NCBI RefSeq assembly: GCF_910592395.1
Contig: NC_088309.1
Coordinates: forward strand, 28,832,599-28,896,598
Length of the DNA stretch: 64,000 nt
Reading direction: 5' to 3'
DNA from: Lineus longissimus
Taxonomy: Eukaryota > Nemertea > Pilidiophora > Heteronemertea > Lineidae
Part shown: positions 53,901 to 59,900 of the stretch, one piece after another
How the letters are laid out: each line of letters opens with the position of its first letter
How positions within the stretch are numbered: the stretch's first letter is position 1
Made by a program: the position numbers and the translations under genes
The notes under the pieces: model-generated
Told to the model about the DNA's origin: nothing
What the model saw: the letters and a program-made list of their open reading frames with translations, nothing else
The model's database searches: none

Positions 53901-56900
53901 TGTTTCTGTGTCAATCATCTCTGTTCTGATCTTACCTGCAAGCAGACGACAGCAAAACATCAGCAGACGTCAAGCAAAATGTAAACAAAACATAAAGATC
54001 GAGTCATTGGCTGTGTTAGCAGATAAACAAGAAGCATTTGAACAAAGTGCCACCCCTTAACAGATTCTCGGAAACACAAATATTCCATGGAAAATGAAGG
54101 TATCCTTCAAGGTGAAATCTGTGTTCACCTTGGCATACCTGCCTCTCCAGGCAAGGTACAAGCCAGAGTACACTATCTTTGTTATGAGTAGCCCCTGGCC
54201 ACACCACAAATATCATCAACATGCTTCGTCCAGCAAGAATTTACAATAAACCCAAGGCAAGATGATTCCAATTCAGTATGATATACCAAACTGTTGTAGA
54301 GTGGCTAGATGAGAATTCCTTACTTTTATCTGATCAGCACACCTTGGACAATAGGCACTGGGGTTTAATTTCAACCAGATATTGCAAAACTCTGCTCTGG
54401 ATAGAAATTTACAGTCAGTGGGAACTTTGTATTGATTATTACTTCATAGAGTACCCATGGCAAAAGTTATATCAGCCAGGACTATGACACACGTCCATCA
54501 CACAGAGGATATGCAATGAAACTTGGTGCTGGTTATCACAGATTACACTCCATAGTGGAGTCTAATTCCATACCAAATAAGCTACAGTTACAAGGTCTAG
54601 CACTGCACTTTTTCTTCATTCTAGTTGCCACTCATTAACTAGTACCTCTGCATTTACCTGCGAAATCTCAGGTGAATTGTATATAAAACCTACAGATGAG
54701 CTGTTCCCACACAGGTTAAATGATAAATATATCATTTCTTTATGTAACGATGGCTGAGGAAGAGAGGCTTGTTAGTAATGTACTGCTGCAGTGCAAGCAT
54801 CCCTCCAAGGTGCACCAAGGTTTGTAAGCGTCATGAATTTCAACTTCTATCAAAACGAACCAGGTTCCAACAAACACAGGGCCGCCTTAAACTGGTCCAT
54901 AGAGGAGGCTTGCCAACGCTGTACTTACCAATTTCTGTATCCAAGCCAGTACCAATGACAACTGCCTTACATTTACCGGCGGCAATGTTCGTTCCCTGAA
55001 AGAGTGGATCATTCAATGGGTGAGGACAGAAACTAAGAAACGGCTGATAAAACGTGTTGGCCAAAGAAGTCTTCACATTATCAGTTACGACGATTTCATA
55101 TATTTCTCATCAATACTAGAACCTTTCATATGAGAAGAATAATGAAATGTTTTTAACGACTAACAATCAGACATTTAAACATTTTTGCTGCTGTCTTTAA
55201 TAAGAGAAGTTTCCTTAACAATACGTTGGAACCACTCAAGTTTACGCCAAACAGTGCTTAACAATGACAACAGATAGACACCCTACAACATCATGCCATG
55301 ATCACAGTCTAACGTCACATGATACACATCAGAAGCGGTTAACGATAATCTCCACACAAGAGAAATCAGATACGACCAGCACCGAGGCAGCCGATTCAAG
55401 ATTCATCAGCACAGGAACGAGATACGTGACCTGGCATACTAATCAGGGCTCGAGATGACAGCATTGGAGGATTCCCGGGGCAAGCAGACGTCATTAGATT
55501 AAGGCACTGAGCAGATGACTGGTTCAATCTATAGGCCAGGGCCACTGTGGGGGGGGGGAGAGTAACCCAGTGTGGATGACTTAACCAATTGATACAGAGT
55601 AGAATGAAATATCCACGATTATTTTGATAACTTCTTAAAATCAAGCATACATTTCATATTATCTATCAGGCTGCACACACCTTATGAAAGCTTTTGTACA
55701 GCAAAATCAGACTGTATCATTCTGTTATTCTACAAAGACAGAACAAAACAAGGCAACAGCCACAGACACACATGGATGCCATCCTTCATGAGATATCTTA
55801 GTCAGGCCTGTTCTTCACTGCCCAAGAGGGAACATCTTCTCCACTAACGGCATGGTCTGGAACCTAACTCACAGACCATCAGCAGTTATGAATAGAGACA
55901 TGATGTTCCTTGACCTTTACAAGAAGGAAGCTAATGATACCATACGATGTGAGCCAACATCTTCACAACACGGTCACATCCTAACTCAATACCTACATGT
56001 ACTATACTAACCAGTCACTGCCAGACGAAACGACCATCAGGGAAACGGCCAAGAGAGTCTCAAATAGAGTCAGCACCATGGCAGCAGCACTGACTTGCTC
56101 ATCACAAAGACACAATCAGATTAGAGCTCAAAACCCATGGACTATGAGATAAACACTCAAAGACCCAAAGCTCCTGTGCTTTAGCATGATGATGTGAAAC
56201 GGGCTGCTTGATTTGAGACTGACTTGGACGTAAGGAACAAGTTACAGAATGTTTGTTTGTAAGCAAGGAAAGCAAGGGAGGGTTAGGTGAAACAAACAGA
56301 AGCTCACACACATGTACGACGACATGCCAATCCTGTTGCTTTGAGTCCAACACTCGCCATAGTAGTGATTGCCCAGAACCCAACACACAACTCAAGCGAT
56401 CATGACGTGACGGTCAACTGGGAAGAAATGTTTATACTGGAACTTATCCAGGTTTTACTCCATGTGTATGATAACCTCATTTGGATATGGACATATGATT
56501 TGAAGTAATCTAGCATTGTTGCTGGTTTCAATAAGCATTCAAACACCATGTTGGCTCTTTTTCAGTTTTACCTCCCTGAAGTTTGTTTAATGAAACTATC
56601 CGAGTTTGGAGGAGTTTTGTGTGAGGTTCCAGACAATCACTGGTAACTTACCGAAAACAGAATGTTCTTTGCATCCTGATTAACGATGCGAAAGTCTGGT
56701 ATGGGATCGGCGTGTTTGGCAACACTCACACTCTCACCTAAGAAGACAGGAAGGGGTGACAGGAGAGGGATGAAACGAGGAACCAAGCGGGGAGAAACCA
56801 AGAGAAGCAGGAGACGAACCTGAGGAGAGAGGGGCAGAGGAGGAACCAACTGGTTCCCTGGCCATTACACGCACTGCACACTAGTTCACTGTGCTGAGTG

Positions 56901-59900
56901 GCAGCTTTGTTGAATCTACCACTCAGCCAACTGTGCATGTGAGTTGTTACAGGCATAGTTTTGACCAACCCCCTCAACCTCCCTCTCTCCTCCCATGGTT
57001 CATGAGGGATGGAGAACCGCGGCTCTGGCCGCCTTACTCACGCTGAATAAAATATTCTTCTTTTCCTGATTGACCGCCCTGAGATCAGTTATCGGGTCAG
57101 CGTGTTTGATCACGCTGACACTCTCACCTAAGGACAGGAGGAAAGATGGTGGAAAGGTGGCGTTAGTGTCTACTTACAGAGAAGAGGATGTTCTTCTTGT
57201 CCTGATTGACAGCCCGGGGGTCGGGAATGGGATCGGTGTGCTTGAGTATGCTTACACTTTCACCTGGTGGTAGAGTCAAAAACATGTCATTTACGATGCG
57301 ACGTGGTGGACACAGGTTAGAGTTAAAGAGGAGTTGAAGAGTGTAAATCAGTAGGAGAGGATGGGGACAGGATGAGTTGGCAAATAAGGAAGGATATATA
57401 AGGTTCTTGTGTGCAGTCTATGTCATGAAGGGTACAGAAGTGTTGTATTCTGGAAGTCAACAAACGACCACTGTCATACTGTGACAAGCCTCTCAGAGGC
57501 ATTGGATGAGTCCAGTACTTCAAATGCTTCTTTCCAACCATCAACATGGGTATGTACACCAGGTGTACACATGAACCACATTACCATGTCAATGTTGTTT
57601 AAAATCATTCATTGCATCTGAGACTCAGTTTTTTCTCCACAGGAATGCTCAATAAAAAGCCAGTGAGGACAAACCTCTTAGAAACCGCAGGTGGTATGAT
57701 GTATTTTTCCAAAATTAGCCTCATCAGTAATACGTGCCTTATAAAACTCAAGTTGTGCACCCACACATATCTTATTATAAAGCAAACAAATTATGATGTG
57801 ACGAGATGATTTCTATCAATGGTCCTGCATGAGAAATCTCATTTCGCCTCCAATTTGACATCCAAGGCAGAATATGATTCCAACCAAGAAGACTTCAGTG
57901 TATTTCAGTCAAGTGCGTCATTGTGTCTCATGACATTTTGTTGCATGGCAGGTACTGCCACGAATGACACGGTAGGAAGCTATACTGAGCGTAATAATGC
58001 CGTGGGAGATCTGGTAGTCAAGAGGTTAACTGAAAGATAGCTAAGATAGGATGAGGTAGGACAAAAAGAGAGAGAGAGAGAAGGAAGATGTGATAATGAA
58101 AGATGAAGTTAATAAACATGTGTCCAACTGAATCATTCCCCCAACTGTTGGGTTTCAACATCAATCAGACCTTATCAGTTATTTCATTCAGATCCGATTC
58201 CACTTGCCCCAACGGTCCTGTCATTCTGAGAGAAAAATATATGATTATTTCCGAAAGGATCGACAACACGTCTTAGACATCACTGACGTTCATGCAGGAA
58301 CTCAACAACAATAGGTACAACACCTGATTTGATAGGACCCAATCAGAATTGGTTTACTAGTCCAGATTTCTTCACCGTTTCTTTCGGCATGAAATCCTAA
58401 GTTGAGCATGAGGCGAGATAGATTCATCTCTCCTGTCCATAATGATGACAGTAATGGAAGACGAAGTGGGGAGGGTTTTATTAAGAACGGAGGTGCACAA
58501 GAGAAAGAGGGTGTAAAGTATAACTATATAAGCAGCAGGGGGTAGCTGCCTCAGGAAATCTTGATATCTGATATCATCGTGACACACATCTGAGCAAGCA
58601 AGGTAGCAACAGGGACATGTCAGATCCTTCTCCTGCTCTTCCATTTGAGACAGAAGTATTCAAGTGTGTCACCATGATATCCACACAGAATATCAAAACA
58701 TTCTGCAATACACTGCTAAAAGAATAGGCTGTTAGAACATGCAAGCATACAGATGTGAAAGATACTGTTGAGTTGTATGTGGGCGGTCACTCAACTTTCA
58801 CCCAGATCAAACAGATCTCAGATTGACCGAAATACAATTGTGACTCATTCCTTGCTAATCATTTGTAAGGAAAGGTTTCCTTGGTTACTCAACAGTAGCA
58901 GTGATACAAGAAATTATCTTCCATGTTCAAATGGCAAAGGTCATACGAAGACTTCAAACTTCTCATATGAGAAACAGACGTTTCCATTAATTGAGCTATA
59001 AGTTCATTTTTTCGTAGTTCATGTAATTCAAATCTAATTCACTTCCATCATGGCACAGTTACATCAACTGCATTCGTCATGAACTAATATAACACAAATA
59101 TTAAGTGAAGGTGATGAGGATCTTGAGACAACATCCATCTAATCTGAGTAACAACTTACCAGTCAGAATAGCCTGGTCAACACGGAGAGTTGTGGAATGG
59201 ACTTTAAGTATTCTCATGTCAGCTGGCACTTTGTCACCGACTGAAATCAAGAAAGAGAAACATCACAACACATGGAAGATAACAAGCTAAAACTTAACAA
59301 TCATGCTGAATATCATGTGCAAAGTTCCCCCTGGTGAAAGGGGCAAACATCGCAGGCAGCCATAAGAAAGCTAAGGTGAACCGGGGGAAAGTGGATATGA
59401 AGGCATTGCTCCTGGGATATCTTAGTGGTGAAAGTTGAGTCTCCAGACGAGAGTGACGTCTGCTCCCAGAGGTCAATACCTAGTTATTGCCATTTCCTCC
59501 CTTGGAACTTGACACTCGACAGCTCAATCAATATACAACAATATCAACACAAGATTTTGATTTGCGTTTCTGGCCAGCAATGTCTAGTTCAGAGTGACCG
59601 AGCAAGAAGCGATCTACCAGCGACCATATCCAAGGCGACCGATCTGCTCATCTTGGTTCACTTATCAAAGGAAAAGTGCAGCTCTTACTTGTCTCAGCTC
59701 TCAAAGTAGAGGCCAGCACATTGCATCAGAAGTCATGCAGAACTGTGGCCTTGTCTCTCAAGTGGAGGCCAGCACATTGCATCAGAAGTCATGCAGAACT
59801 GTGGCCTTGTCTCTCAAAGTAGAGGCCAGCACATTGCATCAGAAGTCATGCAGAACTGTGGCCTTGTCTCTCAAGTGGAGGCCAGCACATTGCATCAGAA

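Follow-up and report, generated by a model that had tools for sequence, protein, structure and literature searches.

Tandem alternative exons are enriched in ion-transport genes (PMC9741552), and the closest described systems are found among the P-type pumps. The Ca2+ pump PMCA carries such exons in vertebrates, arthropods and nematodes, examples being Drosophila PMCA and C. elegans mca-3 (PMC9741552), but it belongs to another pump family than SERCA. The arthropod gene for the Na+/K+-ATPase alpha subunit, again a different ion pump, has two to four tandem copies of exon 11 in barnacle, Daphnia, Anopheles, Ixodes and Drosophila; these copies are called mutually exclusive, and the authors state that their functional importance needs elucidating (PMC3793950). 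Vertebrate SERCA genes likewise yield several isoforms each (1a/1b, 2a-2d, 3a-f), but these arise mostly from splicing at the 3' end, and the sections of PMC10058886 and PMC5840707 dealing with them describe no swap of a catalytic-domain loop. Here, we analysed a 64,000-nucleotide (nt) stretch of the Lineus longissimus genome (contig NC_088309.1, positions 28,832,599 to 28,896,598 of the forward strand; "the window" below, in whose own numbering coordinates are given). It contains a gene for a Ca2+-ATPase of the SERCA type in which tandem duplication has produced two exon clusters, and mutually exclusive use of functional exons within these clusters is, judging from the sequence, highly probable.

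Exon clusters used in this way would be in step with the enrichment reported for ion-transport genes (PMC9741552). SERCA, ATP2A and Ca-P60A are not mentioned in the main text of that survey, nor is ATP2A in the main text of PMC5740500. The initial annotation of this DNA knew of SERCA variants at the C-terminus but not of this arrangement. Our literature search, which covered titles and the openings of abstracts, returned mostly 3'-end variants and no SERCA gene with mutually exclusive exons, although subscription journals lay mostly outside the search and absence there is weak evidence. As far as could be seen, this is a known type of splicing in a new place in SERCA.

Three versions of exon 7

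The first cluster lies on the minus strand and comprises, in transcript order, exons 7c (57178..57263), 7b (57042..57127) and 7a (56652..56737), labelled 3c, 3b and 3a in the initial annotation. Each copy is 86 nt long, begins in phase 1, ends in phase 0, and has an AG acceptor and a GTAAGT or GTGAGT donor. The gene model thus reproduced the coordinates, length and translations given earlier, and the splice sites described there as good were found in place. Aligned with solved SERCA structures, every copy completes the codon for Gly182 and then encodes residues 183-210. When the 64-kb window was searched by tblastn, the three copies matched each other at E = 9e-13 to 6e-12, and all other matches had E values of at least 0.23; E values near 1e-12 indicate that the resemblance is not due to chance. 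By contrast, the neighbouring exons 6 (59160..59240, minus strand, 81 nt, ending in ...DQAILTG) and 8 (54929..54995, minus strand, 67 nt, beginning with GTNIAAGK) had no second copy in the window by tblastn. Neighbouring homologous exons that agree in length and phase and are flanked by single-copy exons, as in mutually exclusive clusters, were found twice in this gene, as 3 x 86 nt and as 2 x 134 nt (see below).

The SERCA gene extends, as far as it was found, over 44919..61644 on the minus strand. Sixteen exon positions make up its model, and the frame stays open for 914 codons to a TAA. All six isoforms (three choices of exon 7 by two of exon 18) are open over the same 914 codons, and GT-AG borders were present at 18/18 introns. 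The model was obtained by tblastn with rabbit SERCA1, followed by the choice of splice sites giving the best joined alignment; the junctions of exon 11 with exons 10 and 12 were placed manually. Two of the six isoforms were scanned with TIGR01116, and both scored well above the cut-off of 703.4 bits (1072.6 for 7c/18x and 1058.9 for 7a/18y), which supports the SERCA-type assignment. The tblastn search of the window did not find residues 1-108, whose exons presumably lie beyond its right end. At the other end of the gene, the last exon (45125-44919, minus strand) encodes a hydrophobic tail beyond the usual end of the short SERCA forms, perhaps an eleventh membrane segment, and a GTAAAA at this point might act as an internal donor and so yield a shorter C-terminus.

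In each pair of exon-7 copies 22/28 residues are alike, while 54-59 of 84 nt are identical. The proportion of differences was low at amino acid-changing sites (pN 0.14, 0.15 and 0.19) and saturating at silent sites (pS 0.90, 0.94 and 1.0). Shared degenerate residues use the same codon at 9/22 positions in each pair, against 9.6-9.9 expected from the codon use of the gene. Selection for codon dissimilarity, which a pS near 1 might suggest, was rejected on this basis, since the number of shared codons is the random expectation. Saturated silent sites together with a retained protein require constraint on all three copies; a copy free of constraint for that long would have lost its protein similarity, and each copy therefore seems to have been retained as a coding exon. 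Exons 7c, 7b and 7a thus look old and held by selection on the protein.

These figures bear on the idea that 7b and 7a are decaying duplicates that are no longer spliced. Extra exon copies may indeed originate in tandem duplication and then decay, but here every copy combines low pN at saturated silent sites with an intact frame, the same length and GT-AG sites, and we consider decay very improbable. Two other origins were tried and rejected. A chance match or haplotype artefact does not fit copies that are this divergent in nucleotides and still match in tblastn as strongly as reported above. A tandem duplication of the gene within the window is contradicted by the 19 exon queries, since a second strong match was obtained for no exon other than 7 and 18.

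Probable mutual exclusion of the exon-7 copies

A functional pump would take one exon from each cluster. For exon 7, skipping all copies leads to a stop at model codon 81, and joining any two of them leads to a stop at codons 106-108. The earlier argument that the frame tolerates exactly one copy stood for skipping and pairing. It did not stand as a statement about length alone, since the three copies together make 258 nt, a multiple of three; the second copy is nevertheless read out of frame in that case and a stop follows at codon 108. In total, early stops were found in 5/5 wrong exon-7 combinations (modelled with 18x) and in 2/2 wrong exon-18 combinations (modelled with 7c), and nonsense-mediated decay of such transcripts would be expected.

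One pair of copies may also be kept apart mechanically. For efficient spliceosome assembly in vitro, donor and branch point need to be about 50 nt apart (PMC6692369). In alpha-tropomyosin and in human OGDH, neighbouring exons cannot be joined because the branch point lies too close to the upstream donor (PMC6692369, PMC7969005), the branch points between OGDH exons 4a and 4b lying at 25-41 nt (PMC7969005). The intron between 7c and 7b (57128..57177, minus strand) is only 50 nt long, compared with at least 125 nt for the other 17 introns of the model. When whole introns were scanned with a simple consensus scorer, a single branch-point candidate, CACTAAC, was found in it; the A of this motif is at +15 relative to the 7c donor and 35 nt before the 7b acceptor. 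Such a short distance, well below 50 nt, would probably block the joining of 7c to 7b, so that these two exons are probably never joined. In comparison with OGDH, only the 7c-7b intron clearly fits the scheme, and its branch point is closer to the donor and only predicted.

For the other pairs, the branch-point candidates give a mixed picture. The 304-nt intron between 7b and 7a (56738..57041, minus strand), which has a pyrimidine-rich end, contains 13 branch-point candidates; the one at +39 scores second, the others lie from +95 onwards, among them one at +102, and that at +271 is the candidate nearest the acceptor at the usual distance. In the 750-nt intron between 18x and 18y the best candidates lie at +627 and +638, while weaker candidates occur between +32 and +49. 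The score is moreover unspecific, since the top candidate of the 125-nt intron between exons 13 and 14 is also near its donor (+12), and the distance limit itself was measured in other organisms. For joining of 7b to 7a, the early stop is the sole safeguard that can be demonstrated. Base pairing between introns gave no additional mechanism: long-range pairing was not stronger than in randomised sequence (z between -1.2 and +1.1 over 10 comparisons, each against 12 random sequences; a test of low power in one species), a docking-site/selector arrangement was dropped for this reason, and an Rfam search returned 0 matches. The 7b-7a intron by itself folds somewhat better than its shuffled versions (z = -2.1, with 2/100 shuffles as good).

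The early stops produced by joining two exons, and the uncertain steric block of the 7b-7a and 7c-7a joins, would also suit a gene with one standard exon, most likely 7c, in which 7b and 7a are rare or serve as poison exons that lower the SERCA level through decay. However, a poison exon need not keep SERCA protein, and both 7b and 7a keep 22/28 residues at saturated silent sites. The acceptors point the same way. Within the last 30 nt of the 19 acceptors, pyrimidines are fewest at 7c (17, tied with exon 10) and most numerous at 7b and 7a (25 each), a hint that 7c may be more than a default choice to which the others are exceptions. We consider poison exons improbable, although less so than decayed copies. 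The mutually exclusive reading put forward in the initial annotation is the one with which length, phase, frame consequences and constraint of the copies all agree, and the short 7c-7b intron may add a mechanism to it. Exon choice would then probably be set by the unequal acceptors, weak in 7c and pyrimidine-rich in 7b and 7a, together with tissue factors. The criterion applied to such exons in PMC5740500 concerns junction reads: these should connect every copy to exons lying beyond its sister copies, and reads linking two copies should be absent unless they shift the frame.

The Val200 loop and the exon 18 pair

Each of the three 86-nt versions would supply the pump with the catalytic Glu183 and with the actuator-domain loop that contains Val200. 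This loop makes a studied contact once the actuator domain has turned, and Arg198 within it becomes trypsin-resistant (PMC5259720); the same paper cites Kato et al. 2003 for Val200. The T2 site has also been placed at the contact between the A and P domains (PMC8249593). E183, S184, K189, D196, R198, V200, N201, Q202, K205 and N206 are kept in 7c, 7b and 7a. Positions 187, 188, 191, 195, 197, 199, 203 and 204 are variable. Exon 7c is the closest of the three to the SERCA2 chain of 5mpm and is identical to it over residues 195-206. Over the same residues, 7b differs at 3/12 positions (P195T, P197L and D203E) and 7a likewise at 3/12 (P197F, A199I and K204A).

The variable positions in the exon were compared with prokaryotic relatives. 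In genome contigs 516 stretches were matched, 459 of which were relatives, and the best 80, all with bacterial or archaeal titles, were used. Among these 80, 71 have D and 7 have E at residue 203, so that E203 in 7b would be a mild change. At residue 204, R occurs in 64 relatives, Q in 12, M in 2 and K and T in 1 each, but A in none; K204A in 7a would take away a charge at a mostly basic position. Viral contigs contained no relative (6 stretches matched a pattern and 0 were confirmed), and plasmid records gave no match.

In the mechanism that we propose, the swapped loop would dock on the P domain in E2P, and for this reason the isoforms would be likely to differ in the rate or the stability of E2P. 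We hold this to be plausible, at slightly better than even chances. Exon 7a, with K204A, A199I and P197F, would be expected to differ most; if docking is ionic, the charge loss at residue 204 makes 7a the best candidate for an altered E2P.

Some results point the other way. Changes were claimed to cluster in the Lys189-Lys205 loop; the tendency exists (6/17 residues variable, against 2/11 outside) but is not significant (Fisher p = 0.30). Among the 80 prokaryotic relatives, V200 is V in only 23 and R198 is not kept. The loop scoring best against these relatives was that of 7c in 39 cases, of 7a in 30 and of 7b in 11. The relatives are a rough guide here, as gaps fall within the loop. An alternative for this step is that the exons are true alternatives giving pumps of equal kinetics, their choice serving, for example, a binding partner, or being nearly neutral. 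Retention of E183, R198, V200 and N201 would suit equal kinetics, as would the variation of positions 191, 195, 197 and 199 in the prokaryotic relatives too. On the other hand, both 7b and 7a alter a quarter of the 12 residues at which 7c equals SERCA2 of 5mpm, and A occurs at residue 204 in 0/80 relatives. Equal kinetics is thus the less likely outcome, although a serious contender. What seem to be three natural and long-kept versions of the Val200 loop in an otherwise identical pump are ready-made variants for asking which residues set E2P kinetics.

The 19 exon queries revealed a second duplicated exon in the same gene, beyond what had been annotated. Exon 18x (48836..48969, minus strand) encodes the luminal M7-M8 loop and the start of M8 (residues 871-914), and exon 18y (47952..48085, minus strand) is its alternative. 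They match each other at E = 1.8e-14 (tblastn), are both 134 nt long, which is not divisible by three, and both run from phase 0 to phase 2. Skipping both leads to a stop at model codon 765 and joining them to a stop at codon 823. The two share 26/44 residues, with the same codon at 8/24 against 10.0 expected, and this pair likewise appears to consist of kept coding exons. C876, C888 and E908 (SERCA numbering) are retained in both; we take C876/C888 to be the luminal disulphide and E908 to be a Ca2+ ligand. Agreement is lower in luminal residues 871-894 (11/24) than in the rest (15/20), and 18x has a net luminal charge of 0, 18y one of -3. In the second cluster the pump would have a choice of two exons covering the luminal M7-M8 loop and M8.

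Together, the two clusters could allow 3 x 2 = 6 isoforms by splicing. It is conceivable, at somewhat less than even chances, that one SERCA gene makes up to six pumps through independent picks, one cluster setting the speed or stability of actuator docking in E2P and the second altering both the luminal loop and the M8 segment close to the Ca2+ site. If so, splicing would tune the catalytic cycle itself, whereas vertebrates rely on three genes and, for the most part, on C-terminal variants, and SERCA would have been diversified otherwise than by gene copies or 3'-end splicing.

Other features of the window

Besides the SERCA gene, the window contains gene pieces at 20978-24415 (minus strand) with VPS9, A20 zinc finger and DUF5601 domains (Pfam), which we take to be a Rabex-5/RABGEF1-like gene. 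Eight other open stretches were compared with Pfam; three were above the cut-off, all of them Rabex-5-like. Fragments at 8869-11261 (minus strand), for which Pfam gave nothing above the cut-off, presumably resemble SGF29. Minisatellite arrays are numerous (18 rows at a score of at least 200), for example at 1099-2171, 14081-15229, 18036-18963 and 31707-32655. Their basic units measure 26-136 nt, and two arrays are longer than 1 kb with 97% matches.

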